Shown one piece after another: positions 598 through 38,621 of a stretch of DNA of 38,621 nt. This DNA comes from Bacillota bacterium (GTDB lineage Bacteria; Bacillota; Negativicutes; Sporomusales; CTSoil-080): assembly GCA_017889635.1 (NCBI GenBank), contig JAGGAC010000050.1, positions 1 through 38,621 on the forward strand. Direction: 5' to 3'. A program made the translations under genes and the position numbers. How positions within the stretch are numbered: position 1 is the stretch's first letter; each line of letters begins with the position of its first letter. The notes beneath the pieces are model-generated. The model made no database searches. It saw only the letters and a list, made by a program, of their open reading frames with translations, and was not told where the DNA came from.

Positions 598-636
598 GAT
601 TATGTACAGTGGTAGCTAGATGGGGAGGTGGAGGAT

Positions 637-1713
637 GTGGACAGAAACGAATTGGATATTTTTCTGCGCCGCCTTACTCCTTTTGAACAAGCGCTGCAAC
701 AAAAAAAGGGAAATGGTATTCCAAAAGTGTTGGATTACGGCAGTGATGTTAGCAATTACATGAAAAAGCATCCCTTTTATAATAAAAGGGATTTTATTGA
801 GCCGATATCTAATCCTGAAACGGACATAAATAAGAAGCTTGAACCGTCAGGTGAGTTTGTAAATTTTTGTTGTCATCCGCGCTTTTTAAAGAAGACTGCC
901 TTACATAGCCACTCATTTATCGAAATGATTTATGTTTACTCAGGGCAGTGCCGGCAAGTGATTAATGATGTACCGATCATAATGAATACCGGCGATACTT
1001 GCATTGTTGATATGAATGTCCAACATGTTATTGAAAGTGCTGGAGAAAATGATATTATTATTAATTGCCTGTTGAGTACGGAATATCTTGAAAACATTGT
1101 ATTAGCGCGGCTGGCGGGTAATGATTTGTTTACCAACTTCTTTATTCATGCTATTTATAAAAGCCGTGAATATAACAATTTTATGTTGTTTCGTTCCGGA
1201 CGGTCCGATAAACTTAATAAGTTAATGCTCGATATACTATGTGAAGGTTTTGACAAAGCGGCAATTTGCTCAGATGAAATTATAAATTGCTACATGATTT
1301 TAATATTGACAGAATTATTGCATATTTATAGCGATGATAGTAATTTAGCGGATAATAATGTTTTGCGAAGTTTTAAACTACCGGATATTCTGCGCTATAT
1401 TCATACTAATTGTAATGATGCTACGCTTGCTTCTACCGCTGAGTATTTTCATTTTCATCCCAACTATTTAAGCATGATGATGAAGAAGATTACCGGACGC
1501 AATTTCACCAATATTTTGCATGAAGCGAAACTTAGTAAAGCTTCGGTTCTTCTCAGTAATTCGGAATTAGCGGTTGCAGAAATTGCTAATTTAGTAGGCT
1601 ATCAAAACATTAATTTTTTCTATCAAATATTTAAGAAGAGTTATGGCGTTACTCCGGCGGAGTTCAGAAAAAAATCTAAAGCGGGTTTGCGGCAGAAGGA
1701 TAATAACTCATAA
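637..1713 (+). CDS. AraC-family transcriptional regulator (cupin + HTH), copy 1
   Basis: This is a cytoplasmic one-component regulator. An N-terminal cupin-like sensor has HSHSFIEMIYVYSGQC from about residue 90, followed by a beta-rich GDTCIVD segment. The C-terminal 100 residues form an AraC double helix-turn-helix ending in the signature FFYQIFKKSYGVTPAEFRKK. I chose GTG 637 over GTG 628: GGGGAGG at 622-628 is then correctly spaced, and residue 1 aligns with the start of the paralogue at 10043 (xDRxELDxFLRRxTPFE in both). The gene converges on the GH78 gene and is separated from it by a bidirectional terminator. It probably senses a sugar, most plausibly one released by the neighbouring rhamnosidases; that is inference. 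Confidence 0.9.
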   Translation: MDRNELDIFLRRLTPFEQALQQKKGNGIPKVLDYGSDVSNYMKKHPFYNKRDFIEPISNPETDINKKLEPSGEFVNFCCHPRFLKKTALHSHSFIEMIYVYSGQCRQVINDVPIIMNTGDTCIVDMNVQHVIESAGENDIIINCLLSTEYLENIVLARLAGNDLFTNFFIHAIYKSREYNNFMLFRSGRSDKLNKLMLDILCEGFDKAAICSDEIINCYMILILTELLHIYSDDSNLADNNVLRSFKLPDILRYIHTNCNDATLASTAEYFHFHPNYLSMMMKKITGRNFTNILHEAKLSKASVLLSNSELAVAEIANLVGYQNINFFYQIFKKSYGVTPAEFRKKSKAGLRQKDNNS

Positions 1714-6328: not shown

Positions 6329-6377
6329 TTTATTAAGATATTAGAAATCGTCATAGTTAATGTGTAATAAGGACATT
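6329..6377 (+). promoter_or_regulatory. Candidate AraC-type operator upstream of porin 1
   Basis: AAATCGTCATAGTTA at 6345-6359 matches ATATCGTCATTGTTA, seen upstream of GH43 and porin 2, at 13 of 15 bases. Weaker half-sites are phased around it: TTTATT at 6329 and GACATT at 6372, 21-22 bp either side of the GTCATA core at 6350. The -10-like TATAAT lies at 6402. The remainder of the 457-bp divergent region shows no named element beyond those listed. Confidence 0.45.
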
Positions 6378-7820: not shown

Positions 7821-7866
7821 AAATGGGTAAGGAAAATAAGTTAATTAAGTCTCATTTATGAATTTA

Positions 7867-9965: not shown

Positions 9966-10042
9966 TCGTTATAGCAGTTAAAATACCGTCAATGTTTGAA
10001 GCAGCAGATTTAGAAATTGATACAGTTGGGAGCATCCGAAAT

Positions 10043-11068
10043 ATGGACCGGTGGGAATTGGATAAATTTTTGCGCCGAATCACTCCTTTTGAAGCGGCGA
10101 TCCAGAATCGGCAGAACTTGAAAGTTCTCAAGCCGTTGGTAAGGGGCGAACATTCAAGAAAATATCCGATTTTTGATAACCAGGATATAGTTGATAATAT
10201 ACTAAGTAATGCGAACCAAGGTGAGGCTAAACTGGTTTTTGCGTCTGAGGGCATTAGTTTTTGCTGTCACCCCCGGTTTCTCAAAACCCAGCTCCATAGT
10301 CATTCTTTTGTTGAAATGATGTACGTTTATTCCGGGCAGTGCCGTCAAATAATCAATGGTATCGAAGTTACAATGCATCAAGGAGAAATATGTATTGTTG
10401 ATACTAATATACAGCACCTGATCGAACCTACCGGTGAGAATGATATTATTATTAATTGTCTGATGAGCAAAAGTTATCTTGAAAATATATTAATTGGCCG
10501 CCTGGCAGGCAACGATTTGTTTTCAAGCTTCTTTGCCAAGGCTTTGTATCCAAACAACGATTCTAACAACTACCTGATATTTAGTTCAGGGCAATCGGAG
10601 AAAATTAATCAGTTTATGACTTATTTGTTGTGTGAGAGTTTCAATAGAGTAATCTGGTCTGATGAAGTTATTAATAGTTACATGGTTTTGATTTTCTCCG
10701 AACTTTTGTCGATCCATACAAGTGATATTAATAGTCAGAATTACTATGTTATAAAGAATATAAAATTATCGGATATCATTTTGTTTATCCAGGAGAACTG
10801 TAACACTGCAACGCTGGCTTACGCTGCCGAACATTTTCACTTTAATCCCAATTATTTAAGTATGATGCTGAAGAAGCTGACTGGACATAATTTTACGGAT
10901 ATCCTTCATCAAGCGAGATTAAGAAAAGCCTGCCTATTGCTTAATAACTCAAGTATGGCAATTGCTAAAATTGCTAATTCGGTTGGCTATCAGAATGTGA
11001 ATTTCTTTTACCAGATATTCAAAAAGCATTATGGCGATACACCGGCCGAATACAGGAAAAAAGGTTAA
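10043..11068 (+). CDS. AraC-family transcriptional regulator (cupin + HTH), copy 2
   Basis: A paralogue of the regulator at 637: it shares the N-terminal xDRxELDxFLRRxTPFE, the cupin core HSHSFVEMMYVYSGQC, the segment GENDIIINCLMS and the C-terminal HTH ending FFYQIFKKHYGDTPAEYRKK. The frame is open from 9992, but ATG 10043 has GGGAG 10 nt upstream and aligns with copy 1, so I take it as the start (341 residues). It may be co-transcribed with hexokinase. Immediately downstream (11112-11176) is the best AraC-type operator and promoter in the window, making this protein or copy 1 the leading candidate to bind it. Confidence 0.9.
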   Translation: MDRWELDKFLRRITPFEAAIQNRQNLKVLKPLVRGEHSRKYPIFDNQDIVDNILSNANQGEAKLVFASEGISFCCHPRFLKTQLHSHSFVEMMYVYSGQCRQIINGIEVTMHQGEICIVDTNIQHLIEPTGENDIIINCLMSKSYLENILIGRLAGNDLFSSFFAKALYPNNDSNNYLIFSSGQSEKINQFMTYLLCESFNRVIWSDEVINSYMVLIFSELLSIHTSDINSQNYYVIKNIKLSDIILFIQENCNTATLAYAAEHFHFNPNYLSMMLKKLTGHNFTDILHQARLRKACLLLNNSSMAIAKIANSVGYQNVNFFYQIFKKHYGDTPAEYRKKG

Positions 11069-11111: not shown

Positions 11112-11176
11112 ATATCAGTCATTTAGACATCAAATATCGTCATTGTTACAGCGCTACTTATCATCTATTCTATAAT
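11112..11176 (+). promoter_or_regulatory. AraC-type operator and activator-dependent promoter of GH43
   Basis: Two direct half-sites, ATATCAGTCATT (from 11112) and ATATCGTCATTGTTA (11134-11148), have GTCATT cores 21 bp apart, two helical turns. The second runs up to the position where a -35 would be, and a perfect TATAAT follows at 11171-11176. No good -35 is present. The same layout recurs at 13169-13233. The predicted transcript would carry the hairpin at 11231 in its leader. Confidence 0.6.
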
Positions 11177-12726: not shown

Positions 12727-12978
12727 ATGGGCGAATTAATAGGATCGTTAGCAGCTGTTCTTACAACTTGCGCATTTTTTCCACAAGTACTTAAATGTGT
12801 TAAAACCAAATCGGCAGAGGACTTATCGGCAGCATGGCTGTTAATGATGGGGTTTGGTATATTCCTTTGGGTTGTTTATGGGTTATGGATTGCTAGTTTT
12901 CCGATCTTGTTATCAAATATAGTTATTTTTGTTTGTCTTATAGTATTGATGTATTATAAGTTCGGTATGGCTAGATAA
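12727..12978 (+). CDS. SemiSWEET / PQ-loop family small membrane transporter
   Basis: An 83-residue protein with three predicted membrane helices and the proline-glutamine motif in TTCAFFPQVLKCVKTKSAEDLS, the hallmark of the MtN3/PQ-loop family. Bacterial SemiSWEETs of this size dimerise into a sugar uniporter. TAGGGGG precedes the ATG. Position directly after GH43 suggests passage of a released monosaccharide across the inner membrane; substrate and direction are unknown. Confidence 0.88.
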   Translation: MGELIGSLAAVLTTCAFFPQVLKCVKTKSAEDLSAAWLLMMGFGIFLWVVYGLWIASFPILLSNIVIFVCLIVLMYYKFGMAR

Positions 12979-12987
12979 ATGAGACTT

Positions 12988-13022
12988 AATTCAGGTGGGG
13001 TTTTAACCCCATCTGAATTTTA
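12988..13022 (+). terminator. Terminator after the SemiSWEET gene
   Basis: The stem AATTCAGGTGGGG / CCCCATCTGAATT (one G-T pair) has a TTTTAA loop and is followed by TTT. It starts 10 nt after the stop codon. Confidence 0.75.
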
Positions 13023-13168: not shown

Positions 13169-13233
13169 AGATTGGTCAATCATACGTGCGATATCGTCAT
13201 TGTTAGGGGCGTATCCAGGGCTTATCCTATATT
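13169..13233 (+). promoter_or_regulatory. AraC-type operator and promoter of porin 2
   Basis: Half-sites AGATTGGTCAAT (from 13169) and ATATCGTCATTGTTA (13191-13205) have GTCA cores 21 bp apart. The second shares 15 identical bases with the site before GH43. TATATT at 13228-13233 lies exactly 37 bp from the start of the second half-site, the same distance as TATAAT in the GH43 promoter. The predicted porin 2 leader is then about 250 nt. I see no further named element in 13234-13423. Confidence 0.58.
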
Positions 13234-16417: not shown

Positions 16418-19237
16418 GTGAGTAAAGCTGTAGTAAGTATTAGTAGATTAAAATGTGAATATATGTCCGAACCAATCGGCATTGATGTATTAAAGCCACG
16501 GCTAAGTTGGGAAATAGCTTCAAGTCGCCGGGGGATGCTGCAAACGGCTTATCAGGTGATTGTGGCAAAAACGTTGGAAACTCTGGACCAACTCACTGAC
16601 TTGGTGTGGGACACCGGTAAGGTTGCGTCAGCACAGTCAATAAATTGTGAGTATGACGGGCCGGCGCTTCAGTCCCGGCAGCGGTATTATTGGAAGGTAC
16701 GTGTCTGGGATGAAAAAGATAATGTAACTTCTTGGAGCGAAAGCGCCTGTTGGGAAATGGGGCTGTTGGACAAGCGGGACTGGGCGGCTAAGTGGATCGA
16801 GCCGCAGCAAAAACCGACGGTTAAAGACGGGAAAAGAAAGTTTTTTGAAATGTTTGAGGGGAACCGGGAAGCGGAGAACGATTATTTGCGCCTCCAGCCC
16901 TGTCCGCTGCTCAGGAAAGAGTTTAAGGTCAGCGGCGATATAAAACAGGCCAGGATTTATGCTACGGCTCACGGCGTATATTCCCTTGAACTTAACGGAA
17001 AACGGGTGGGGAATCGGGAATTAGCACCGGAGGTTACTGCTTACCAGAAGTATCTTCAGTATCAAACTTATGATGTAACGGAAATGATTGCTGCAGGCGA
17101 CAATGCGCTTGGCGTAATTTTGGCTGACGGCTGGTACGCTGGCAGAATCGGGCTAAGCGGCGACAGCTGCCAATACGGGGATATGCTGGCGCTGTTATTG
17201 CAGCTGGAAATAGACTATGCCGACGGCAAAAAAGAAATTATTGTGTCTGATGGCAGTTTTAAGTCATCAACCGGGCCGCTGGTATACTCAGATATTTTTA
17301 TCGGCGAACGTTATGATGCAAGGCAGGAAAAAGCGGGTTGGAGCTGCGCAGGGTACGATGATCGTGGCTGGACAACGGCAAATGAAGTGGAATATGGCTA
17401 TGGCAATCTGGTGGCTCAGTACGGTGAACCAGTGCGGGTGATGGAAATAGTCAAACCGGTCGAGATTATAACGACCCCGAAGGGGGAAACGGTTATCGAC
17501 TTCGGCCAGGTGCTCTGCGGGCGGGTGCGAATGACTGCTAATGGAGCGGCAGGGACAGAGATTGTGCTGGAACATAGCGAAGTGCTGGACGAATACGGCA
17601 ACTTCATGATGAATATCATGGGGCGGAGCAAAGAACAAAAAGACCATTATGTGCTCAAAGGTGCAGGGGACGAGGTTTACGAACCACGGTTTACTTTTCA
17701 TGGCTTTCGCTATGTAAAAGTAACCGGCTATCAGGGAGACATAACGGCCGATAAGTTTAGTGCTGCGGTGCTTTATTCTGGGCTGGAGAGTGTAGGGAGT
17801 TTCGAATGCTCTGATCAGCGGCTTAACCAACTGCAGCATAATATCGTGTGGAGTCAAAAGGGAAATATGCTGGGGATACCTACCGATTGTCCGCAGCGGG
17901 AACGGGCAGGCTTTACAGGCGACATCCAGGTGTACGCGCCTACGGCGTGTTTTAATATGGATGTGGCGGCCTTTTTGATTAATTGGCTGCGCAATCTGGC
18001 GTTAGAGCAGCGCGAAGACGGGGCAGTGCCGGTAATGGTGCCGTACTTTCCGGCGATCGAAGATCTGCAGGCCTCGATGGGTACTCATACTTCAGCTGGT
18101 TGGGGCGACGCCTGCGTTATTGTGCCGTGGGCTTTGTATCAGGCTTATGGCGATAAGCGAATCCTTGAAGAAATGTATCCGGTAATGAACAGGTGGCTGG
18201 ACTATATTATCAAGGACGCGGCTGAGAATATTCCGGAGAATGTTGCCGGCGAAATGACTGAGGAACGCCGGCGGCGTCATCAGTATTTATGGAATACCGG
18301 ATTTCATTTTGGCGACTGGCTGATTCCCAGCCTGTGTGATGAAAAAGATGGTGCAATGCGCGGCGCGTTTATGACCAAAGAATTGGTGTCAACCTGTTTT
18401 TACGCTTATTCAACTGAGCTAGCCGCGAATATTGCCGACCTTTTGGGCAAGGCACAAGACGCTAAGCGTTATCAGGAAATATCCGGCAAGGTCCGCCAGG
18501 CGTTTGCAGAAGAATATCTTGGCGAAGACGGCACCTTAACGGCTCATTTTCAGGGGATATACGTATTGGCGCTAAAAATGAACCTAGTGCCGGACCATAT
18601 GCGCGGCAAGGTTCTGAACCAGCTTGTTACACTGATTGAACAGAATAATAACCGACTGGACACCGGGTTTTTGTCGGTGCCGTTTTTGCTGGATGTTCTC
18701 TGTGACAATGGCCGCCGCGATGTGGCATATAAGCTGTTGTATCAGACGGAGTGTCCGTCCTGGCTATACCAGGTTGAAAAAGGCGCGACCACGATGTGGG
18801 AACGGTGGGCGGCGATAATGCCTGACGGAAAAGTAACCGGGGCGTCGTTTAACCATTATGCCTTCGGTTGTGTGGGGGATTGGCTGTACCGGAGAATTGC
18901 CGGTATAAACGCCGGACAGGCTGGCTACAAACATATTGTAATCAAGCCTGAACCTGACGAAAAATTGACCTACGCAAAGGCAAGTTATCATTCGGTTTAT
19001 GGCGAAATTATTTCTGGCTGGAAGGTTGAAGACAGTGTGATGACTGTCAAGGTCACAATTCCGGTCAATACAACCGCAGAGGTATGGTTGCCTGGAGCCG
19101 AACTGGGTGAGGTTACTGAACAAGGGATGAGTCTTAACCAATGTCAGAGAGGTATCTCCGGCAGACAGCAGGATGAGAATGTTCTTGTTGCACTGGGGTC
19201 AGGCAATTATTCATTCCAGTATCCGCTGAAAAAATAA
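16418..19237 (+). CDS. Alpha-L-rhamnosidase, GH78, copy 2
   Basis: A full-length 939-residue cytoplasmic GH78 enzyme with the same domain order as copy 1 (KCEYMSEPIGID, YYWKVRVWDE, GVYSLELNGKRVGNRE, LADGWYAGRIG). The acid region DCPQRERAGFTGD gives D490, E495 and D502; the base is E795 in TTMWERW. The start is GTG 16418 with AAGGGGA 7 nt upstream. There is no signal peptide. It has many blocks in common with the copy at 1865 and differs more from the one at 29753, so copies 1 and 2 look like a duplication. Its upstream neighbours are the porin and MFS of the same cassette. Confidence 0.95.
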   Translation: MSKAVVSISRLKCEYMSEPIGIDVLKPRLSWEIASSRRGMLQTAYQVIVAKTLETLDQLTDLVWDTGKVASAQSINCEYDGPALQSRQRYYWKVRVWDEKDNVTSWSESACWEMGLLDKRDWAAKWIEPQQKPTVKDGKRKFFEMFEGNREAENDYLRLQPCPLLRKEFKVSGDIKQARIYATAHGVYSLELNGKRVGNRELAPEVTAYQKYLQYQTYDVTEMIAAGDNALGVILADGWYAGRIGLSGDSCQYGDMLALLLQLEIDYADGKKEIIVSDGSFKSSTGPLVYSDIFIGERYDARQEKAGWSCAGYDDRGWTTANEVEYGYGNLVAQYGEPVRVMEIVKPVEIITTPKGETVIDFGQVLCGRVRMTANGAAGTEIVLEHSEVLDEYGNFMMNIMGRSKEQKDHYVLKGAGDEVYEPRFTFHGFRYVKVTGYQGDITADKFSAAVLYSGLESVGSFECSDQRLNQLQHNIVWSQKGNMLGIPTDCPQRERAGFTGDIQVYAPTACFNMDVAAFLINWLRNLALEQREDGAVPVMVPYFPAIEDLQASMGTHTSAGWGDACVIVPWALYQAYGDKRILEEMYPVMNRWLDYIIKDAAENIPENVAGEMTEERRRRHQYLWNTGFHFGDWLIPSLCDEKDGAMRGAFMTKELVSTCFYAYSTELAANIADLLGKAQDAKRYQEISGKVRQAFAEEYLGEDGTLTAHFQGIYVLALKMNLVPDHMRGKVLNQLVTLIEQNNNRLDTGFLSVPFLLDVLCDNGRRDVAYKLLYQTECPSWLYQVEKGATTMWERWAAIMPDGKVTGASFNHYAFGCVGDWLYRRIAGINAGQAGYKHIVIKPEPDEKLTYAKASYHSVYGEIISGWKVEDSVMTVKVTIPVNTTAEVWLPGAELGEVTEQGMSLNQCQRGISGRQQDENVLVALGSGNYSFQYPLKK

Positions 19238-19243
19238 ATGAAT

Positions 19244-19297
19244 AAAACGCCTCTTTTATGCCATAACGTTAATTTTGGCACAAGGGAGGCGTTTTTT
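19244..19297. terminator. Terminator after rhamnosidase 2
   Basis: The outer stem AAAACGCCTC / GAGGCGTTTT with an inner TGCCA/TGGCA stem is followed by TTTTTT. It starts 7 nt after the stop codon. Confidence 0.8.
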
Positions 19298-19347: not shown

Positions 19348-19399
19348 TGAGAAAACTGCAAGAGCTGAAATATGACCAGGGTGTAAGGTGGTTGGTAAT

Positions 19400-21814
19400 A
19401 TGGAATATAACTATGAATTGATCAATATTAATGAGGATTTGCCGCTGAATATTTTCTTGCATAAAGTAAAATACGTTGCCAATCATTGGCATGACCACAT
19501 CGAAATTCTATTTGTTTTAAAAGGCAAGGTTGATGTACGTATTTATGATAAACAGTTTACTTTGCGGCAGGAAGATTTGCTTTTAATCAATATCAATGAA
19601 ATTCATTCTATTCAGGCCGATGAAGATAATTTACTGCTTGCGCTGCAAATTCCGATTTCTTTCATAAAAGGACAATATAAAGATATTGAACCGATGACTT
19701 TTGAGTGCAAGTCCTTTATGTATGCTGGTGATGAACAGGAACGATTTAATCGGGTTCGGTCATTATTAGCCGAGCTGATGCTGGTACATAGTAAAGGAAC
19801 CTTTGGGGCTGAAATATCGATCAAAATTAAGGCCCTGCTCTTAGGGTTAATTTACTTGCTTGTCAGTAATTTTAGTTATAACAGTGAAGCTAGTCGTATA
19901 AGTAACAAATATATGCAGCGTTTGCTCCGAATAACTAATTATATGAAGGACAACTATACAAAGGAACTTGGGCTAAAGGATATTGCTGATCTTGAAGAAC
20001 TATCTGTTCCTCATGTATCAAATTTTTTCCAAAAGTATATGGGAATGTCCTTCAGCAAGTATTTGAGCCAAATCCGCATGGAACACTCGGTAAAGGAAAT
20101 ACTGCTGACCGATTTGCCAATAACCCAAATTGCCATGAATCAAGGGTTTCCCAACTTAAAATCTTTTCATAAGCTGTTTAAGGAGATATTCAATACTACG
20201 CCGGCTCAGTACCGCAAAGGTTTGCTTGAAAAGCCTAAGAAGCCGGGGAAAATTGATAATTCGATACCTAAGTATTTAGACTATAATCGGGAAAATGCCT
20301 ATGAAGGTTTGTTTAAGTATTTACGTCAGTCTTTGAATGAGGCGGCCTATATTACTGAAGCTGACAGCAGGAAAACACAGACGGTAAACATCGAAATGCC
20401 TGAACACTGTAAGGAACTGGCACATTCCTGGCGAAAGTTGTGTTCTATCGGCAAGGCCAAGGAGGGTCTGTATGTTGAAGTTCAGCGTCACCTCAAAGCG
20501 ATCCAGGAAAGAATCGGTTTCCGGTATGTCCGCTTTCATGGCATTTTTGACGACGAGATGATGGTTTACCACGAAGATGAAGCGGGGCAGCCATGCTTGA
20601 ATTTCGCCTATGTCGACCAACTCTTTGATTTTCTGCTGAACATTGGTTTGAGGCCGTTTGTTGAGCTGGGTTTTATGCCTAGTGACTTGGCTGGTGGGGC
20701 CGAAAAAATATTCTATAAAACAAGCAATATAAGTATGCCTAAAGATATACAACGCTGGAAACTTCTTGTACGGTCATTGGTTGTACACTGTATAACCAGG
20801 TATGGCTTGGAAGAAGTCAAGACCTGGTATTTGGAAATCTGGAATGAGCCGGATACCATTGCTTTTTGGCGCGGAAACTTTGAAGAGTATTGCCGGTTTT
20901 ATCTGGATAGCTACCAAACTATCAAGGCAGTTTGTTTTGATATTAAGGTTGGGGGGCCGGGAATAACTTTCGATTCACTTTGGAAAAATGACTTTCTGGA
21001 AAGGTTCATTGGTTACTGCCAGGAGCAGCAATGTCTGCCGGATTTTCTTACTTTTCACTCTTATCCTGGCGGATTGGAAGATATGCTGCAGCAACTCGAC
21101 TCGTCAGCGGTAGAACTAAAGGAAAATTCAGAAACCTATTTAAGTGACGCTGTGCAACTGGTAAATGATAAAATTGAACAACTGAAGATTGCGCAAACCG
21201 AAATTCATGTGACGGAGTGGAACTCTACTCCGTCGCATCGTGATCTTGTTAACGATACTTGCTTTAAGGCGGCGTACATTGCCAGAAATATTAATGACAA
21301 TTTAGATAGAGTTGCCAGCCTGTGTTATTGGACTGGCACCGATTTATTGGAAGAATTGCCGCTGGCAAGGGATACCTTTCATGGCGGGCTTGGTCTTATT
21401 ACCTATAACGGTATTAAGAAACCCGGGTTTTATGCCTATGAATTGCTGGCTAAGCTAGGGGAACGGCTGGTTTCAAAAGGGCCGGGCTACTGCCTCACCA
21501 AAACGCGTGATAAATATCAACTCTTGGTGTATAATTACTGCCATATTAATAAGCTGTATAGTATGAATGACTTATTAGGGATCGACGCAGTAAAGCGTTA
21601 TCATGTTTTCGCTGCTAACGGTCAGCTGGAAATAAATTTTAATATAACCGGCATTACTGCAGGGAATTACACCATCCGTAGTTATACCATTAACCGGGAG
21701 CATGGCAGCGCTTTTGATTTATGGCTGGAGTTAGGGGCGCCGCAGTCGCTGACAACCGCTGATATCGAATATCTAAACACTAAAGGCGTACCAAAACAAG
21801 TTGTGCGTTCGTAA
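19400..21814 (+). CDS. AraC regulator fused to a GH39 glycosidase domain
   Basis: A single 804-residue chain. Residues 1 to about 100 form an AraC-type cupin (NHWHDHIEILFVLKG), and about 170-280 an AraC HTH pair (LGLKDIADLEELSVPHVSNF and the C-terminal signature TPAQYRKG). From about residue 330 to the end comes a GH39 beta-xylosidase-like TIM barrel plus a beta domain. Both catalytic glutamates are present: acid/base E483 in LEIWNEPD and nucleophile E606 in HVTEWNS. ATG 19400 is chosen because AAGGTGG is 8 nt upstream. There is no signal peptide. It may be a glycoside-sensing regulator, or an enzyme that is also a regulator. It has its own promoter and terminator. Confidence 0.9.
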   Translation: MEYNYELININEDLPLNIFLHKVKYVANHWHDHIEILFVLKGKVDVRIYDKQFTLRQEDLLLININEIHSIQADEDNLLLALQIPISFIKGQYKDIEPMTFECKSFMYAGDEQERFNRVRSLLAELMLVHSKGTFGAEISIKIKALLLGLIYLLVSNFSYNSEASRISNKYMQRLLRITNYMKDNYTKELGLKDIADLEELSVPHVSNFFQKYMGMSFSKYLSQIRMEHSVKEILLTDLPITQIAMNQGFPNLKSFHKLFKEIFNTTPAQYRKGLLEKPKKPGKIDNSIPKYLDYNRENAYEGLFKYLRQSLNEAAYITEADSRKTQTVNIEMPEHCKELAHSWRKLCSIGKAKEGLYVEVQRHLKAIQERIGFRYVRFHGIFDDEMMVYHEDEAGQPCLNFAYVDQLFDFLLNIGLRPFVELGFMPSDLAGGAEKIFYKTSNISMPKDIQRWKLLVRSLVVHCITRYGLEEVKTWYLEIWNEPDTIAFWRGNFEEYCRFYLDSYQTIKAVCFDIKVGGPGITFDSLWKNDFLERFIGYCQEQQCLPDFLTFHSYPGGLEDMLQQLDSSAVELKENSETYLSDAVQLVNDKIEQLKIAQTEIHVTEWNSTPSHRDLVNDTCFKAAYIARNINDNLDRVASLCYWTGTDLLEELPLARDTFHGGLGLITYNGIKKPGFYAYELLAKLGERLVSKGPGYCLTKTRDKYQLLVYNYCHINKLYSMNDLLGIDAVKRYHVFAANGQLEINFNITGITAGNYTIRSYTINREHGSAFDLWLELGAPQSLTTADIEYLNTKGVPKQVVRS

Positions 21815-21870
21815 ATAACGCTAAGTATAAAATTGCCTTAGTGACAGTTCAAATAATAAATCGTTATGCA

Positions 21871-21904
21871 AAAAAGAAGTACATCAATAAGGTGCTTCTT
21901 TTTA
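21871..21904 (+). terminator. Terminator after the AraC-GH39 gene
   Basis: The stem AAAAAGAAGTAC / GTGCTTCTTTTT (one G-T pair) has a 9-nt loop and ends in a T-run. The preceding 21815-21870 stretch shows nothing further. Confidence 0.85.
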
Positions 21905-22989: not shown

Positions 22990-23631
22990 ATGAGGTTTAC
23001 AGTAGTTATTTTTGATTTAGATGGCGTTATTGTGTCAACAGATGAGTACCATTATTTATCCTGGAAGAAGATTGCCGACAGGGAAGGAATAGTGTTTAAC
23101 CGGGACATCAACAATCGTTTGCGCGGAGTCAGCCGTATGGAAAGTTTAGCGATAATTCTGGAGAAAGCTTCGCGTGAGTATAGTGCTAACGAAAAAGAAG
23201 TACTGGCTGCGACCAAAAATGCGCTCTACCGGGAGGCGCTAACAGAACTGACTGAACAAGACCTGTTACCAGGGATAAAGGAAACTATCAGCGAGCTTAA
23301 AAAACGCTATATAAAAATCGCGATTGGGTCATCAAGTAAAAATACTGCCCTCATTTTAAAGCAAGTGGGGCTGGCGCACGAGTTTGATGCAGTGGTAGAC
23401 GGTAATGACATAAAAAACAGCAAACCTGATCCGGAAGTTTTTCTGCTGGCGGCTGCCAGAATGGGAGCAGCTCCCGAACAGTGCCTGGTGGTGGAAGATG
23501 CCGATTCTGGTGTTGACGCAGCTATTAGGGCTGGCATGAAGGTGGCTGGTGTGGGACAAGCTGCCGCGAATTCGAAGGCAAGCTTTGCGTTAGGTTCGGT
23601 AAAAGATATATTAGCTTTTGTTGGCTGTTAG
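22990..23631 (+). CDS. pgmB: Beta-phosphoglucomutase, HAD family
   Basis: It interconverts beta-glucose 1-phosphate and glucose 6-phosphate in the cytoplasm. Motif I, IFDLDGVIVSTDEYHY, gives nucleophile D9 and acid/base D11. The cap has the substrate loop RLRGVSRMES. Motif II is GSSSKN, motif III the Lys of SKPDPEVFL, and motif IV VVEDADSGVDAA. At 213 residues it is normal for the family. Its substrate usually comes from an inverting disaccharide phosphorylase (maltose, trehalose or kojibiose type), and no such gene is in this window. The ribosome binding site is weak (AGGGTG). It sits alone between a terminator and the porin 3 leader. Confidence 0.92.
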   Translation: MRFTVVIFDLDGVIVSTDEYHYLSWKKIADREGIVFNRDINNRLRGVSRMESLAIILEKASREYSANEKEVLAATKNALYREALTELTEQDLLPGIKETISELKKRYIKIAIGSSSKNTALILKQVGLAHEFDAVVDGNDIKNSKPDPEVFLLAAARMGAAPEQCLVVEDADSGVDAAIRAGMKVAGVGQAAANSKASFALGSVKDILAFVGC

Positions 23632-25274: not shown

Positions 25275-25313
25275 CAAGCTGCCTGTGGTGTTATTTATAA
25301 CGCAGGCAGCTTG
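25275..25313 (+). terminator. Hairpin between porin 3 and MFS, no U-tract
   Basis: The 13-bp stem CAAGCTGCCTGTG / CGCAGGCAGCTTG (one G-T pair) has a 13-nt loop, 19 nt after the porin stop, and is followed by TGATCAGG. It holds the same position as the hairpin at 14832 in cassette 2. Confidence 0.5.
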
Positions 25314-25357
25314 TGATCAGGAGTCATCGATCGATATTGAAAGGACGACGATTAGAG

Positions 25358-26620
25358 ATGAATAATATGATTGCTGTCAGGACTCCTTTCTGGCAGTTAC
25401 TAATTGGTATGGTGCTTGGGCAATTGGGCAACACCATGGCGGCCGTAATTCCGCTGGCACTACTTTTAACGCTAAAATTAGTGGAGCTTGATCCGCAGAA
25501 CGTTGCTGCAAATATGGGGATGGCGGCTGGTTTAGCATCGTTGGTTGGAATTTTTTCCAGCTATATTGGCGGTGCGGTTAGCGACAGAACGAACTTGTCA
25601 TTTGGACGCAGACGTACCTGGATTTTAGCTGGTAGCGTATTAGCCGGAGTTTGTCTTGTGGCACTTGGTGCGACTAAAGATATCGGACAGATCATACTTT
25701 ATTGGTGTTTAGCTGTTTTTTGCATAAATTTTGCAATGGCTTCGCTTTCCGCGCTTATTCCCGACCAGGTTGAGGAAGGCCGGCGCGGTATGGCCTCAGG
25801 AATAATTGGTCTTTTTAATCCGGTGGCTATTGTTACTGGGATGGGACTGATGACTGCGCTGAATAGTATTCCGACAGCTACTAAATTTGATGTTATTGCC
25901 GGTGTTGTCGTGGTCTGTGGAGTAGTATGCTGCTTTATTATCAAAGACGGACCCGGATTGCGCCAACTTGAAGTAAATCAAGTTCAGGAAAAACTGACTT
26001 TTGGCGAGAAGTTGGGAAAAGTTTATCCCAGTCCCCGCAAGTATCCGGCCTTTTCCTGGGGTGTTTTGACTCGTTTTCTGGTTAGCATGGCCTTTAATAC
26101 CCAGATGTTCGGCACGCTGTATTTAATGCAGAAATTTAATATTCCAGCAGAGGCAGTTACCGGTGTGGCTGCTTTAACCATGCTGATTCAGACAATTTGT
26201 TTAGCACTGGCCAGCTTCTTTGGGGGAATGCTTTCCGATAAGTATCGCAAACAAAAGCCGTTTGTAGAGGGTGCGGCAGTTCTTGTAGCAATTGGTGTGT
26301 TTATCTTGGCGTTTGCTCCGTCCATGCCTGTTGTCTTTATCGGTAATGCAATTATAGGCGCGGGCTTTGGAGCATATCTTGCAGTGGATATGGCTTTAAC
26401 CGCCAGAATTCTGCCTAACAAGAAAGATGCCGCCAAAGATTTTGGTATTATGAATATCGCCGGTACGCTACCGCAGTCACTAGTAATGGCGATAGCGTCA
26501 CCATTACTGGCAATGGGGGGATTCCCAGTGTTTTACGGCGTGCTTGCTATAACCGGTATTCTGAGCGCTGCAGCAGTTATTCCGATTCCGGAAATGTCGT
26601 CAAAGCCTGTTCAGGAATAA
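25358..26620 (+). CDS. MFS sugar transporter, copy 3 cassette
   Basis: A 420-residue, 12-TM inner-membrane carrier closely related to the one at 14978. It has GGAVSDRTNLSFGRRRTWIL between TM2 and TM3, GGMLSDKYRKQKPFV in the second half, ALIPDQVEEGRRGMASG, and the same C-terminus IPEMSSK. ATG 25358 aligns with the start of the paralogue and has a GGACGACGATTAGAG leader like the GAGGAAGAGATTTAG there. The porin-hairpin-MFS order is the same as in cassette 2. Esterase, GH3 and rhamnosidase genes follow, so the cargo is probably an acylated or mixed rhamnoside; that is inference. Confidence 0.9.
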   Translation: MNNMIAVRTPFWQLLIGMVLGQLGNTMAAVIPLALLLTLKLVELDPQNVAANMGMAAGLASLVGIFSSYIGGAVSDRTNLSFGRRRTWILAGSVLAGVCLVALGATKDIGQIILYWCLAVFCINFAMASLSALIPDQVEEGRRGMASGIIGLFNPVAIVTGMGLMTALNSIPTATKFDVIAGVVVVCGVVCCFIIKDGPGLRQLEVNQVQEKLTFGEKLGKVYPSPRKYPAFSWGVLTRFLVSMAFNTQMFGTLYLMQKFNIPAEAVTGVAALTMLIQTICLALASFFGGMLSDKYRKQKPFVEGAAVLVAIGVFILAFAPSMPVVFIGNAIIGAGFGAYLAVDMALTARILPNKKDAAKDFGIMNIAGTLPQSLVMAIASPLLAMGGFPVFYGVLAITGILSAAAVIPIPEMSSKPVQE

Positions 26621-26819: not shown

Positions 26820-27911
26820 GTGGCTGTAAATAACGACTATGACATTTTGGTAGCTCTTATGGAAACTCGGTTTACTGTCAGACCTGAGAAGGGTATTGAT
26901 ATGATTATAAAACACATTCCTGACTCTGATGCCGATGGTGTGCTTGATCAAAGGGTATTGAAGACTTTGTTGGATTTTAAAGTGCCGGATTTAGGCGATG
27001 TTCCAGGTGGGTTTGATGTAGAAGTCTTAAGGAGACTTGCAGGATTTCCTAATAAAGATATGACATGTAGTGAAATTAAGACTGAATATCGCGATATTGA
27101 AACCCGAAACGGCGTTATTCCTATCCGCGTGTATTCTCCACTAAAGGAAGATATTATGCCGGCAGTCGTTTTTTTTCATGGCGGCGGTTTCTTTGGCGGT
27201 TCGGTAGATACGGTTGAGAACTGCTGTAAAGCTTTGGCTGAGAAGGCAGGGGCTGTTGTGGTATCTGTCGCTTATTCTTTGGCACCAGAGCGCAAGTTTC
27301 CTGTAGGGCTGGAGGATTGCTTTGACGCCGTAAAATGGGTGTGGACTAATGTTTTGGAGCTTAAGGTAGATCGACGGAAAATCGCTGTTGCCGGTGATAG
27401 TGCCGGAGGTAACCTGGCGGCGGTATGTGCAATGATGGATCGTGATTTAGGAACTGGAATGATTAATTTTCAGGCATTAATTTATCCGGTAGTAATTCTT
27501 GATTTTTCGGCAGTGACTGAGGATTATAAATGGGATATTAAAGAATATGTAATTAAGGCTGATCATGAAGTAATCAAAGGTGCTTTAGCAGCATTAAGAG
27601 ATTCTTCGCCACTGATGAATGGTTTTTATGTAGGAGAAAAGGCGGACTTGATAAAACCTTATGCGTCGCCACTCTTGGCAGAGGATGCGGGCAATTTGCC
27701 GGAAACGCTTATTATAACCGCGGAGTATGATTATCTGCGGTTGCAGGGCGAGGCTTATGCCCGGAAGTTGACTAAAGCCGGAGTAAAAACAAAAGTAATT
27801 CGCTATAGTGGTGTAGATCATGCCTTTATTGACAAAATTGGTGTTTATCCGCAGGCCGAAGATTGTATGAATGAAATAGCAAAAGCATTGCAACAGGTAT
27901 TTAAGGCCTAG
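26820..27911 (+). CDS. Alpha/beta-hydrolase esterase, HSL (GDXG) family
   Basis: A cytoplasmic carboxylesterase, probably removing acetyl or other acyl groups from imported glycosides. The oxyanion-hole motif is FFHGGGFFGGS. The nucleophile elbow GDSAGGN gives S194, with D304 in AEYDYLR and H334 in DHAF completing the triad. About 90 residues precede the hydrolase core. The start is GTG 26820 with GGGGGA 8 nt upstream; 363 residues. It lies between the MFS and GH3 genes of cassette 3, on the same strand. The exact acyl substrate cannot be read from the sequence. Confidence 0.9.
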   Translation: MAVNNDYDILVALMETRFTVRPEKGIDMIIKHIPDSDADGVLDQRVLKTLLDFKVPDLGDVPGGFDVEVLRRLAGFPNKDMTCSEIKTEYRDIETRNGVIPIRVYSPLKEDIMPAVVFFHGGGFFGGSVDTVENCCKALAEKAGAVVVSVAYSLAPERKFPVGLEDCFDAVKWVWTNVLELKVDRRKIAVAGDSAGGNLAAVCAMMDRDLGTGMINFQALIYPVVILDFSAVTEDYKWDIKEYVIKADHEVIKGALAALRDSSPLMNGFYVGEKADLIKPYASPLLAEDAGNLPETLIITAEYDYLRLQGEAYARKLTKAGVKTKVIRYSGVDHAFIDKIGVYPQAEDCMNEIAKALQQVFKA

Positions 27912-27997: not shown

Positions 27998-29695
27998 ATG
28001 ATTAATTTAAAAGCAAAACCGTTTAATTTAAATGAAGAAGATATTAAGTGGGTTAAAAAGACGCTTGATTCGCTGGACCTCAAGGCTAAAGTAGGGCAAC
28101 TGTTTTGCCCAATAGGCCTGAGTACAGAACCGCAATACTTGGATAACCTTTTAAATACCATGCAGCCAGGCGGTATTCTGTTTAGGGCCGGGCCGGGAGC
28201 CCAAGTACAGGATACTCATAATTATTTGCAGGAAAATTCAGCGGTGCCGTTGTTGGTTGCCGCTAATCTGGAAGTCGGCGGCAATGGGAGTGCTGCTGAC
28301 GGGACTTTTTACGGCTATCCCATGCAGGCGGCAGCGACCGATAATGAGACGATGGCATACCGATTAGGTTTGGTTTCAGGGCGTGAGGGCGCAGCTGTAG
28401 GCTGTAACTGGTCGTTTGCACCAATTGTGGATATTGACCGGAATTGTAAGAACCCGATAACCAATGTGCGAACCTATGGCTCGGACTCGGACAGGGTGCT
28501 AAAGATGGCTAAGGCGTATATGAAGGGAGCGCAGGAAAGCGGGGTTGCTGTAGCAGCCAAGCATTTTCCTGGCGACGGCGGTGATGATAGGGATCAGCAT
28601 CTGCACATTGGCGTCAACAATCAGTCAGTTGCGGAATGGGATGCAACCTACGGAAAAATTTATCAGGGGATGATCGAGGCTGGCACCAACAGTGTAATGG
28701 TTGGGCATATCATGCTGCCGGAGTATTCGCGGGCGCTTGTACCAGGGATAACAGACAGTGAGATTATGCCGGCATCGCTGTCACCTGAATTAATGAAAAC
28801 TTTGTTGCGCGAAAAGCTTGGTTTTAATGGTGTCATAATTATTGATGCGTCACCGATGGGTGGATTTACTATGGCCGAGCGCCGGGAAGTTGCGGTGCCG
28901 AAGACAATTGCTGCCGGTTGTGATATGTTTCTCTTTAACCGGAATGTTGAGGAAGATTTGGAATTTATGCTGGGCGGAATTGAAAAAGGTATTCTGACAC
29001 TGGAACGTATCGATGAGGCGGTTACCCGTATTTTGGCACTAAAGGCATCGCTGGGGCTGTACAAGAAGCAGGCGGCAGGCGTACTTGTCCAGGAAGAAGC
29101 TGCACTGGCCAGTTTAAAATGTCAGGAGCATACTGAGTGGGCTGAGGAGTGCGCCGATTTGGCGGTGACGCTGGTGAAAGACACACAGCAGGTTTTGCCG
29201 CTTAATGTGAAGGACCATAAACGCATCTGGCTGTATGTCTTAGGTGAAGGTCAGGCGCATTTCAGTCAGGATGCTCATTTTTTGTTTAAGGAGCTGCTTG
29301 AAGAGGAAGGTTTTGAAGTAGAAATCTTTGATAAAGATAAGTATCAGTTTAGTTATATGGGGCTTTCAGTAAAAGAAGTAAAAGCCAAATATGACGCTGT
29401 AATCTATTTTGCTAATTATGAACCGGCCAGCAATAAGACAGTGCTCCGAGTCCACTGGACAATGCCGATGGGAGCAGATATGCCGTGGTTTATCAATGAT
29501 GTGCCAACAATAGGGGTTTCTGTGGGCAGTCCGTATCTCTTGCAGGATATCCCGCAGTTAAAGACGCTTATTAACGGCTATTCAGGCAATGATTATGTCG
29601 TTAAAGCGGTAGTGGAAAAACTGTTGGGACGTTCGCCGTTTAAAGGCGTAAGCCCGGTTGATCCGTACGCTGGGTATTGGGAAGCCAAGCGGTAA
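27998..29695 (+). CDS. Glycoside hydrolase family 3 (beta-glucosidase/beta-hexosaminidase type)
   Basis: A retaining beta-glycosidase with no signal peptide. The GH3 N-terminal barrel carries KHFPGDGGDDRDQH (substrate-binding Lys-His) and the nucleophile D283 in VIIIDASPMGGF. A shorter C-terminal alpha/beta domain fills residues of about 380-565. The total length of 565 and the KHFPG...DQH layout resemble the NagZ-like/beta-hexosaminidase branch more than large beta-glucosidases, so the sugar specificity is open. In this setting it may release glucose or another beta-linked sugar after the rhamnose is removed. It lies 57 nt before rhamnosidase 3 and 86 nt after the esterase. Confidence 0.9.
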   Translation: MINLKAKPFNLNEEDIKWVKKTLDSLDLKAKVGQLFCPIGLSTEPQYLDNLLNTMQPGGILFRAGPGAQVQDTHNYLQENSAVPLLVAANLEVGGNGSAADGTFYGYPMQAAATDNETMAYRLGLVSGREGAAVGCNWSFAPIVDIDRNCKNPITNVRTYGSDSDRVLKMAKAYMKGAQESGVAVAAKHFPGDGGDDRDQHLHIGVNNQSVAEWDATYGKIYQGMIEAGTNSVMVGHIMLPEYSRALVPGITDSEIMPASLSPELMKTLLREKLGFNGVIIIDASPMGGFTMAERREVAVPKTIAAGCDMFLFNRNVEEDLEFMLGGIEKGILTLERIDEAVTRILALKASLGLYKKQAAGVLVQEEAALASLKCQEHTEWAEECADLAVTLVKDTQQVLPLNVKDHKRIWLYVLGEGQAHFSQDAHFLFKELLEEEGFEVEIFDKDKYQFSYMGLSVKEVKAKYDAVIYFANYEPASNKTVLRVHWTMPMGADMPWFINDVPTIGVSVGSPYLLQDIPQLKTLINGYSGNDYVVKAVVEKLLGRSPFKGVSPVDPYAGYWEAKR

Positions 29696-29752: not shown

Positions 29753-32461
29753 ATGGCAAATAACATTCAGGTTGTAAGCCTGAAATGCGAGTACCGGATC
29801 AATCCGCTTGGCATTGATGTTCTAAAACCAAGGCTAAGCTGGAAACTTCAAACGCAAGCGAGGAATATCATGCAATCGGCGTACCGTATTTTGGTTGCCA
29901 CTGATGAAGTTTTTAACAATATTGTCTGGGATTCGGGTCAAGTAATGTCCGACCAGTCGGTGCATGTGGAATATAATGGTGAAGTATTAATACAACGGAC
30001 AAGATATTATTATAAAGTACAGGTTTGGGATGGTGCAGGAAATGAATCGCTTTGGAGTAAAGCTGCCTTTTGGGAAACTGGGCTTTTAAAATCCAGCGCC
30101 TGGGTTGCTCCGTGGATTACTCCTGAAATGCCGGAAAGCGGAGCTTGCCCTCTATTAAGAAATACGTTTGAACTAAAGGGAAAGATTAAGGCCGCCCGGG
30201 TTTATGTAACCGCCCTTGGTGTTTATGAATTATATATAAATGGCGGCAAGGTCGGTGATTGGCTGTTGACTCCTGGGTGGACAGCTTATCATAAACGGTT
30301 GCAGTATCAGACCTATGATGTAACTGATCTGTTGAAGACCGGCACCAACGCCGTCGGGGCTATGCTGGGCGGCGGCTGGTACAATGGTAATATGGGCTGG
30401 GAAGAAAAGAAATACAATTACGGCGATAAATTAGCTTTACTCTGCCAAATGCATGTAACCTATGAGGATGGCACTGAGGAGATTATTTCCGACGCCGGGT
30501 GGAAATCGGCAACTAGTCCAATTCTTATGTCCGAAATATATCATGGAGAAACATATGATGCCCGCTTGGTGAAAAATGGTTGGAATACCCCTGGGTATGA
30601 CGACAGCGATTGGCTAGGGATTCAGGTGTTGGAACAAACAAAGGATATTCTTATTGCGCAAGAGTCACAGCCGGTTAAAGTAATTGAGGAAGTTAAGCCT
30701 AGTGGGATAATTCATACCCCCAAGGGGGAAACGGTACTGGATTTCGGTCAGAATATGGTTGGTTGGGTTCGCTTTTCGGTTGATGGTCCGGCAGGAGCGG
30801 TGGTAACTCTCCGACACGCCGAGGTGTTGGATCAGGAAGGAAATTTTTATACTGAGAATTTAAGAACTGCAAAACAGACTATCGAATATATCCTGAATGA
30901 TGATGGTCAGCAGACATATGAGCCGCATTTTAGTTATCAAGGATTTCGGTATGTCCATGTTGTTCAGTATCCTGGTGAGATCCAGCGTGAAAACTTCACT
31001 GGTATTGTAATTCACTCAGCCATGGCCGAGACCGGAAGATTCGAGTGCTCTAGTGAGCTGGTAAATCAGCTCCAACACAATATCCTCTGGAGTCAGAAAG
31101 GGAACTTTGTTGAAGTTCCCACCGATTGTCCCCAGCGAGATGAACGGGTTGGCTGGACTGGCGATGCCCAAATCTTTGCCCGTACGGCCTGCTTCAATAT
31201 GGATACTGCGCTGTTCCTGAAAAAGTGGTTGGGGGATGTAAAGGCCGAACAACGGGATGACGGTGGTGTACCGGTTGTAGTGCCAAACATTCTTGGCGCT
31301 CCTTTTGGCAGCTTTACTGCCGGGGCTTGGAGTGACGCGGCGGTAATCTGCCCGTGGACAATTTATCTGTGCTATGGCGATTTGCAAATACTAAAAGACC
31401 ATTACGAAAGTATGCGCTCTTACGTCGAATACGTCAAGAGTGTAGCTGAAAATGGGTTGTTGTGGAAAAGCGGTTTTCAGTTTGGAGATTGGCTTGCCCT
31501 TGACGCTAAAGAAGGCAGCTTTGTTGGGGCGACGTCCAATGAGTTGGTTGCTACCGCTTGCTATGCCTATTCAACAAGTATTTTGGCCAAGACAGCGGCG
31601 CTTCTGGAAAAAGCAGATGATGAGAAGCTTTATCGTGAACTGCATGCTAACATTGTTCAGGCTTTCAGACAAGAGTTTTTTACCCCTGCCGGGCGGCTTG
31701 CAGTGCCGACTCAGACAGCGCATATTCTGTCCTTAATGTTTGATCTGATGGAAGAAAAGGACCGGCAGCGAACCGTTGATACGCTGGTTAAATATTTAGA
31801 TAAAAACAAGTGGCATTTGGATACTGGCTTTGTTGGTACGCCATATCTTTGCCATGTTCTGAGCAGCAACGGTCGAGCGGACGTGGCCTATAAATTGCTT
31901 CTGGCTACCGATTACCCGTCCTGGCTATACCAGGTAACCAAAGGTGCTACCACCATTTGGGAGCACTGGGATGGCATTAAGGAGGACGGTTCATTTTGGA
32001 GCGCAAACATGAATTCTTTCAATCATTACGCTTATGGCGCGATTGGTGAGTGGCTGTATCGAGTTGTGGCCGGTTTGGATCTTGATGAAACAATCCCTGG
32101 CTACAAGCGGATTATTATTAAGCCGCAGCTTTCAAAAGCTCTTAGTTGGGCGAGTGCCGAACTGGAATCAATGTACGGCCTTATTAAAACTAAGTGGCTA
32201 TATGCAGGTGATTTTTTGTCGGTAGATGTGACCATCCCGCCAAACACTACGGCTAAAGTTACATTGCCTTATGCTAAAGTAAGTGCAGTAACTGAAGGTG
32301 GCGCAGCGTTAGCGAATCTGCCGCTGCTCGGGTTACTTGCTGAAGACGCCGCAGGCGTGAGTTTGGAAGTTGGTTCAGGCAGTTACTCTTTCCGCTATAG
32401 CGTTAACAGCGACCTAATACCTGACATCCCGGCGACAGTAAACAAAATGCCGTGGGAGTAA
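29753..32461 (+). CDS. Alpha-L-rhamnosidase, GH78, copy 3
   Basis: A 902-residue cytoplasmic GH78 enzyme: KCEYRINPLGID and YYYKVQVWDGAGN (beta domain), GVYELYINGGKVGDW and LGGGWYNGNMGW (lectin-like domain), then the barrel and C-terminal sandwich. The acid region is TDCPQRDERVGWTGD (D458, E464, D471), the more common GH78 form with one residue more than copies 1 and 2. The base is E737 in TTIWEHW. It is clearly a separate lineage from the other two copies, so its specificity probably differs. It ends cassette 3, followed by a strong terminator. Confidence 0.95.
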   Translation: MANNIQVVSLKCEYRINPLGIDVLKPRLSWKLQTQARNIMQSAYRILVATDEVFNNIVWDSGQVMSDQSVHVEYNGEVLIQRTRYYYKVQVWDGAGNESLWSKAAFWETGLLKSSAWVAPWITPEMPESGACPLLRNTFELKGKIKAARVYVTALGVYELYINGGKVGDWLLTPGWTAYHKRLQYQTYDVTDLLKTGTNAVGAMLGGGWYNGNMGWEEKKYNYGDKLALLCQMHVTYEDGTEEIISDAGWKSATSPILMSEIYHGETYDARLVKNGWNTPGYDDSDWLGIQVLEQTKDILIAQESQPVKVIEEVKPSGIIHTPKGETVLDFGQNMVGWVRFSVDGPAGAVVTLRHAEVLDQEGNFYTENLRTAKQTIEYILNDDGQQTYEPHFSYQGFRYVHVVQYPGEIQRENFTGIVIHSAMAETGRFECSSELVNQLQHNILWSQKGNFVEVPTDCPQRDERVGWTGDAQIFARTACFNMDTALFLKKWLGDVKAEQRDDGGVPVVVPNILGAPFGSFTAGAWSDAAVICPWTIYLCYGDLQILKDHYESMRSYVEYVKSVAENGLLWKSGFQFGDWLALDAKEGSFVGATSNELVATACYAYSTSILAKTAALLEKADDEKLYRELHANIVQAFRQEFFTPAGRLAVPTQTAHILSLMFDLMEEKDRQRTVDTLVKYLDKNKWHLDTGFVGTPYLCHVLSSNGRADVAYKLLLATDYPSWLYQVTKGATTIWEHWDGIKEDGSFWSANMNSFNHYAYGAIGEWLYRVVAGLDLDETIPGYKRIIIKPQLSKALSWASAELESMYGLIKTKWLYAGDFLSVDVTIPPNTTAKVTLPYAKVSAVTEGGAALANLPLLGLLAEDAAGVSLEVGSGSYSFRYSVNSDLIPDIPATVNKMPWE

Positions 32462-38051: not shown

Positions 38052-38621
38052 TTAGGCGTGGCCTTGTAAATAGAGGTTTAGTGTCACAGTACTACCAGAA
38101 GTAGTAGCCCGATAGTACATTCTTGCATACTTAAAGTGATAGGTGGAAACAAAGGCGGAAAGGCTGGCTGCAGGCAAAGTTATTTCTGGTTCCTCATTTA
38201 AATAGTTGGTGCCATCGGGACTTACCTGTAATATAAGTCCTGCACTATTGGTGGTACTGGCATTATACGCGCCAACTGTCCAAACATTAAACGGCAGTAC
38301 TGTCCAGGTATCTGAAGCTGAGAACGTAGTGTCACTTGTAGTAAGATTGAGTGCGGTTACGTCGGTAGTAGCGTTGTCTGCTGTAACGGAGCCGGTGACG
38401 CTTAAGGCACCAGAAGTAGTGATGGTAACAGTACCGATGGTAACACTGACGGTGTTATCAACATTGACGGAGCCGGTGACGCTTAAGGCACCAGAAGTAG
38501 TGATGGTAACAGTACCGATGGTAACACTGACGGTGTTATCAACATTGACGGAGCCTGTAACACTTAAGGCACCAGAAGTGGTGATGGTAACAGTACCGGT
38601 GGTGACGCTGACAGTATTATC
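38052..38621 (-). CDS. Repeat-containing surface protein, C-terminal part (cut by window edge)
   Basis: The minus-strand frame is open from the right edge to the stop at 38052-38054, giving 190 residues. It begins with 27-residue tandem repeats of the form VTIGTVTITTSGALSVTGS then VNVDNTVS, rich in Ser/Thr and with alternating Val/Ile as in a beta-solenoid. A linker follows, then a C-terminal domain (LPFNVWTVGAYNAS, LQVSPDGTNYLNEE, ending LNLYLQGHA). That domain is homologous to the end of the neighbouring 36989-37846 protein. No start codon lies inside the window. It is probably a surface filament, spore-coat or S-layer-associated protein; the function is unknown. The high Thr content next to glycosyltransferase genes suggests possible O-glycosylation. 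Confidence 0.8.
   Translation of the reverse strand, partial: DNTVSVTTGTVTITTSGALSVTGSVNVDNTVSVTIGTVTITTSGALSVTGSVNVDNTVSVTIGTVTITTSGALSVTGSVTADNATTDVTALNLTTSDTTFSASDTWTVLPFNVWTVGAYNASTTNSAGLILQVSPDGTNYLNEEPEITLPAASLSAFVSTYHFKYARMYYRATTSGSTVTLNLYLQGHA
38389..38621 (-). repeat. 81-bp tandem coding repeats
   Basis: Repeat starts (the GAGCC of GAGCCGGTGACG/GAGCCTGTAACA) fall at 38389, 38470 and 38551, exactly 81 bp apart. The first two units are nearly identical and the third has scattered synonymous changes. Each encodes 27 residues of the protein above. The array continues past the window edge, so its copy number is unknown. Confidence 0.92.

Follow-up and report, generated by a model that had tools for sequence, protein, structure and literature searches.

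The AraC-type regulator encoded in the window (the whole stretch of 38,621 nucleotides that was analyzed, from a bacterium of the class Negativicutes) continues into a GH39 glycosidase domain whose active site is complete as judged by alignment. The pattern of sequences across the family is best explained if this domain served the fusion first of all to recognize a glycoside on behalf of the regulator; catalysis would have been preserved in regulators that accompany a GH3 operon and given up in the others. The family to which the protein belongs contains members with a whole active site, with lost catalytic residues, and with half-deleted barrels and extends, by profile comparison, to the staphylococcal regulator AryK and probably to Rsp.

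Architecture and active site of the fusion protein

The reading frame of the fusion (Table 1) is preceded by AAGGTGG ∼8 bases 5' of the ATG at 19400, which agrees with the residue numbering of a first-pass annotation of this DNA; a GTG at 19388 is the alternative start. Cupin, AraC helix-turn-helix (HTH) domain, and GH39 domain, which that annotation placed on one chain, do share a single open frame, and all three score above their Pfam cutoffs: AraC_binding reaches 40.8 bits (cutoff, 21.1), HTH_18 69.1 bits (cutoff, 33.6), and Glyco_hydro_39 289.4 bits over residues 329 to 800 (cutoff, 26). HTH_AraC is also above its cutoff, with 56.4 bits. Inspection of the linker by eye reveals no convincing internal ribosome-binding site. 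A sequencing artifact or chance read-through can be excluded as the origin of the fusion because ∼110 AraC-GH39 fusions with both parts in one open frame were gathered from other genomes; the architecture is thus not unique to the window, in agreement with the first-pass annotation, according to which such fusions exist in databases. The gene is probably its own transcription unit, since strong terminator hairpins are found on both sides.

TABLE 1 Fusion gene, parts of its product, and neighboring features in the window
Feature	Position	Strand	Basis or remark
GH78 α-L-rhamnosidase gene, directly upstream of fusion	16418..19237	+	Pfam
Intrinsic terminator of upstream GH78 gene	19244..19295	+	23-nt arms, 83% complementary; RNA fold z −7.1
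AraC-GH39 fusion gene	19400..21814	+	ATG start, 804 amino acids, uninterrupted reading frame
Cupin (AraC_binding), residues 17 to 101, N-terminal	19448..19702	+	Pfam and structure model; H29, H31, E35, H69
AraC DNA-binding domain, two HTH motifs, residues 169 to 276	19904..20227	+	HTH_18 and model helices
Linker, residues 277 to 322, mostly low confidence	20228..20365	+	pLDDT <50 at 277 to 298 and 311 to 321
GH39 (β/α)8 barrel and C-terminal β domain, residues 323 to 804	20366..21811	+	Pfam, 289 bits; Z 43 to 1w91/2bs9/1px8
Codon of E483, putative acid/base (XynB E160)	20846..20848	+	Alignment
Codon of E606, putative nucleophile (XynB E277)	21215..21217	+	Alignment
Intrinsic terminator 3' of fusion gene	21871..21903	+	12-nt arms, 92% complementary; RNA fold z −3.3
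β-Phosphoglucomutase gene	22990..23631	+	171 bits to 3nas; adjoins fusion and GH3 in L038 and L056
MFS sugar transporter gene	25313..26620	+	Pfam; MFS adjoins fusion in many relatives
α/β-Hydrolase esterase gene (HSL type)	26820..27911	+	50 to 52% identical esterase in L038, L040, and L056 operons
Gene for GH3 protein like β-glucoside phosphorylase BglX/BglP	27998..29695	+	495 bits, full length, to 5vqd

The AlphaFold model of the protein has a mean pLDDT of 83, with most of the GH39 domain above 90. The predicted GH39 domain (residues 326 to 804) superposes on the crystal structures of GH39 xylosidases with a Z score of 43 at 1.9 to 2.4 Å over ∼440 residues. By Pfam and the model, the protein has the DNA-binding domain of ∼100 residues with two HTH motifs that defines the AraC/XylS family; it belongs to GH39 by profile, barrel fold, and both catalytic glutamate positions, the activity itself being predicted. 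The first-pass annotation had both catalytic glutamates retained, and alignment with XynB from Thermoanaerobacterium saccharolyticum as the reference (acid/base E160 and nucleophile E277) bears this out, with Glu at both E483 and E606. The other pocket residues R378, H380, N482, H553, Y555, W644, D648, E651, E652, F660, and H661 are present as well, corresponding to XynB R52, H54, N159, H228, Y230, W315, D319, E322, E323, F331, and H332, respectively.

The barrel fold, catalytic pair, and pocket are shared with the GH39 β-xylosidases XynB of T. saccharolyticum (1px8) and XynB1 of Geobacillus stearothermophilus (2bs9), at ∼32% identity. In contrast to the window protein, these are free enzymes without a DNA-binding part. 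With the classical sugar regulators AraC, RhaS, and MelR the protein shares the cupin, the HTH domain, and the surroundings of a sugar operon; it differs from them in that the HTH domain lies midchain, followed by an enzyme domain of 480 residues.

Intact and dismantled members of the fusion family

The fusion is the sole GH39 protein of its own genome, which is 99% complete, and GH39 proteins of any kind are rare in the class (4 of 380 genomes). AraC-GH39 fusions are common in Paenibacillus, other Bacilli, and Clostridia; the closest relatives of the window protein are from Paenibacillus (L040 and L067, 49 to 52% identity), from genomes G572/G708 (L136 and L192), and from the Peptostreptococcaceae (L038 and L056, 44% identity). 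In a tree of the GH39 domain, one branch with a support of 100 parts all 60 sampled fusions from free GH39 proteins, a topology compatible with a single fusion event. Apparent fusions from Massilia in a DNA search were rejected, being separate neighboring genes. At these loci (L117, 7158 to 10031; also L087 and L114), the two partners occur as neighbors in unfused form: a free GH39 gene is immediately preceded by an AraC gene whose product has an apparent membrane segment.

Fusions were called intact if both glutamates and the asparagine of the WNEP motif are kept, which applies to 61 of the ∼110; the others are dismantled. Conservation of both glutamates across homologous fusions, which the first-pass annotation had named as a check, is thus found in a diverse set but not throughout the family. 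Clustering below 70% identity leaves 39 nonredundant intact fusions with a mean identity of 37%. H380, H553, Y555, W644, D648, and E652 are invariant among them, i.e., 6 of the 10 pocket sites beyond the three defining residues, compared to 24 invariant positions among 373 of the barrel overall (hypergeometric P = 7e-6 for enrichment in the pocket).

One or both glutamates are lost in some 40 fusions. The acid/base motif reads WNAP in Clostridium puniceum (L065), a natural Glu-to-Ala change, WNDP in L072/L078, and WKNE/WKKE in L033/L082; both catalytic glutamates are gone in L070. A further group, L005 and L213 to L220, is without much of the middle of the barrel. The C. puniceum protein (L065, 2300 to 4777) retains nearly all of the rest of the pocket, and a free GH39 protein (L127) is encoded in the same genome. 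Of 39 dismantled members, 16 still have Glu at the nucleophile position but only 3 at the acid/base position, as expected if binding outlives catalysis. The cupin quartet H/H/E/H, common among ordinary AraC cupins, is found in all 61 intact fusions versus 8 of 40 dismantled ones; these 8 keep the quartet without the catalytic pair. Parsimony requires at least three changes for the active-site losses on the tree; a single dismantled clade is not rejected (AU P = 0.08), and independent losses are not claimed. In general, fusions of this kind do not need catalysis for their regulatory role, because a large branch has lost catalytic residues or half the barrel and kept the regulator.

Among NCBIfam models, the window protein matches best that of AryK (NF047455), a regulator that the first-pass annotation does not mention, with 201.3 bits (E = 2.5e-59) against a curated cutoff of 850 bits, which makes it by sequence a homologue of AryK and not AryK itself. 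Three proteins from Staphylococcus genomes (L203, L207, and L209) are AryK by that cutoff, with 1,026 to 1,230 bits, and Pfam detects no GH39 domain in them. Profile comparison nevertheless relates the C-terminal halves of AryK to the intact fusions with a probability of 99.96% (E = 5e-38) and to the free GH39 profile alone with 99.1% (E = 8e-18), against 0.1% for a reversed control. By this comparison, AryK has an eroded GH39 domain as its C-terminal half. AryK has the same order of parts as the window protein, with an N-terminal domain, an AraC HTH domain, and a GH39-like C-terminal half; both catalytic glutamates, much of the pocket, and the cupin quartet are absent from AryK, whereas the enzyme part of the window protein is complete. 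The same order applies more distantly to Rsp (NF033869), whose C terminus matches the intact fusions with 96.5% over the last 160 to 170 columns; Rsp and Rsp-like paralogues (L262 to L273) probably carry eroded GH39 sequence over this part. The link is weaker than that of AryK because it is barely detected against free GH39 alone. In Staphylococcus aureus, AryK influences the expression of toxin and metabolic genes in vivo (PMC3922988), and the C-terminal region of these regulators has been described as divergent and possibly signal recognizing (PMC7241556). No report of a GH39 origin of these C-terminal halves was found in the literature searched.

Gene neighborhood, candidate operators, and likely ligand

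The gene cluster in the window comprises three GH78 rhamnosidases, a GH43 enzyme, porins, transporters, an esterase, a β-phosphoglucomutase, and a GH3 protein, the last encoded 6 kb downstream of the fusion with other genes in between. The GH78 α-L-rhamnosidases (1865 to 4705, 16418 to 19237, and 29753 to 32461) are paralogous, with adjoining transporter genes. The products of the window genes are 49 to 64% (GH3), 50 to 52% (esterase), and 55 to 57% (β-phosphoglucomutase) identical to those encoded beside the closest fusions. The gene order there is fusion, GH3, β-phosphoglucomutase, and esterase in L038 and L056 and fusion, MFS, GH3, and esterase in L040 and L250 (the gene of L136), while the MFS-GH3-esterase genes of L050 run divergently from the fusion. 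GH3 is the first gene downstream of the fusion in 10 of 28 cases and MFS in at least 13; GH3 is the second in 18 of 25. Retention of the active site tracks this neighborhood: a GH3 glycosidase or phosphorylase gene lies within 5 kb of 40 of 50 intact fusions versus 1 of 30 dismantled ones (P = 3e-12 by Fisher's test, which ignores relatedness), and only two phylogenetically independent pairs are available, both concordant (P = 0.5 by sign test).

β-Glucose 1-phosphate is the substrate of β-phosphoglucomutase. GH3 phosphorylases of the retaining type rely on a His/Asp dyad and yield β-sugar 1-phosphates (PMC8950772); the GH3 protein of the window carries a KHFPGDG...DxH motif. The two enzymes would fit as one pathway, because the β-sugar 1-phosphate released by one would be used by the other. 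No xylose isomerase was detected in the genome of the window, which encodes two rhamnose isomerases. Plain xylose catabolism is unlikely as the purpose of the fusion, given a genome without a detectable xylose isomerase, the isomerase route being the one searched. The first-pass annotation had proposed a xyloside or arabinoside as the ligand; this gives way as the best guess to a β-glucoside, perhaps rhamnosylated, in view of the isomerases and of neighbors that point to β-glucoside phosphorolysis.

No operator of the fusion regulator is identifiable in the window. A conserved inverted repeat, GTCAATTTTTAA / TTAAAAATTGAC, ∼45 bp apart, lies between the fusion and the MFS gene in only one Paenibacillus clade, 3' of the fusion gene (L032, L039, L041 to L045, L049, L066, L068, and L069), where it is a candidate binding site for the fusion regulator. 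A CcpA-cre-like sequence, TGTAAACGTTTTCA, is found beside it in the same intergenic region. The repeat is absent from the window, and the closest relatives gave no transferable motif. A repeat TTGCCTTAGTGA at 21833 and 22799 was rejected as an operator, its second copy lying in a terminator hairpin and its count being no higher than chance. The 12-mer TCGTCATTGTTA occurs in noncoding DNA at 11137 to 11148 and 13194 to 13205 and, with one mismatch, at 6348 to 6359, upstream of the genes for GH43, porin 2, and porin 1; it is a possible operator of the two other AraC regulators of the window (628 to 1713 and 9992 to 11068). An exact 17-mer, ATAAATGAGACTTAATT, is present in two intergenic regions in opposite orientations (7843 to 7859, minus strand; 12975 to 12991, plus strand). 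A tandem repeat protein with VDNTVSVTIGTVTITTSGALSVTGSVN units is encoded at 38052 to 38621 on the minus strand, running off the end of the window.

Sensing, catalysis, and alternative roles of the GH39 domain

The first-pass annotation knew of no established mechanism for AraC-GH39 fusions, and a search of open-license papers found none either. On balance it is probable that the GH39 pocket senses an imported β-glycoside and thereby controls the GH3 operon; some catalysis, residual or full, is probably retained. The regulator would be a cytoplasmic one-component protein in which an AraC-type DNA-binding domain is joined by a flexible linker to a complete GH39 domain as the glycoside sensor. 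A neighboring transporter would import the β-glycoside, and occupation of the GH39 pocket, or of this pocket and the cupin, would alter DNA binding and activate the MFS, GH3 phosphorylase, esterase, and β-phosphoglucomutase genes close by. As neither the catalytic pair nor any other part of the pocket is damaged, the bound glycoside would probably be turned over, at least slowly. Sensing is supported by an architecture that is kept despite the loss of catalytic residues, including in AryK, and the original role of the fusion was probably that of a sensor of sugar compounds. Against sensing by GH39, the intact H/H/E/H cupin could itself be the sensor, and dismantled members tend to have lost the two pockets jointly; the acid/base Glu is also conserved completely in the intact branch, more than binding by itself requires. 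The few independent events behind the GH3 association, the operator search without a result in the window, and the distance of the GH3 gene from the fusion count against the proposal as well.

The same cupin, kept in every intact fusion, argues for a role in which it alone senses and GH39 is an ordinary cytoplasmic glycosidase that contributes catalysis only. The complete active site, with acid/base and nucleophile invariant in a divergent set, and the absence of any other GH39 protein from the genome would fit such a tethered enzyme. This explanation is unlikely, as a dead or half-deleted GH39 domain persists in many lineages that keep the regulator, something of no use if the domain were only a tethered enzyme, and adjoining GH3 genes already provide β-glycoside cleavage. 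Regulators are also usually present in few copies per cell and would make poor metabolic enzymes. Full conservation of the catalytic residues would be explained directly if GH39 turned the imported glycoside into the true inducer, a product of hydrolysis or transglycosylation bound by the cupin of the same chain. LacZ and allolactose provide an analogue, there not within one protein. In line with such a role, all 61 intact fusions have cupin and GH39 pockets preserved side by side, and the two are often lost together, but the 8 members with the cupin quartet and without the catalytic pair do not conform to it, and this reading is decidedly improbable.

A glycoside hydrolase domain as a sensor has a precedent in RsgI6 of Clostridium thermocellum, whose GH10 domain of very low activity is a carbohydrate sensor (PMC4711584). 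RsgI6 is a membrane-spanning anti-sigma factor that responds to extracellular polysaccharide, whereas the window protein is predicted to be a soluble one-component AraC regulator with GH39; Pfam gives only cupin, HTH, and GH39 in it, so that it is no member of the RsgI type and is proposed to work comparably. This precedent, with the preferential loss of the acid/base in part of the family, speaks for a pocket that binds glycosides like RsgI6-GH10, with no meaningful hydrolysis despite intact residues. Such a binder is quite improbable for the intact branch, where all catalytic and nearly all pocket residues of XynB are invariant and the sequences give no sign of an impaired site. The protein may also destroy its own inducer, as the first-pass annotation suggested. 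In the full form of this idea, a working retaining glycosidase as the sensor would bind the inducer, turn the operon on, and then cleave the inducer, which would limit the signal in time, and the architecture would be ancestral to AryK and Rsp by erosion of the enzyme, a reading that can be put forward only tentatively.

Glycoside sensing by GH39, as preferred here, builds on what was already known, namely, AraC-GH39 fusions in databases, two halves from known families, and glycoside hydrolase domains as sensors. What is new is the split into intact and dismantled members, the way this split follows the presence of GH3 operons, and the connection to AryK and Rsp. The family offers a natural experiment on the path from enzyme to sensor, with a whole active site, loss of the acid/base only, and loss of half the barrel behind the same DNA-binding domain. 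The comparison also gives an origin to the unexplained C-terminal half of AryK in S. aureus, and probably to that of Rsp, and suggests glycoside sensors as the ancestors of these regulators. Intact members, if they combine sensor and enzyme, would be compact self-resetting switches.
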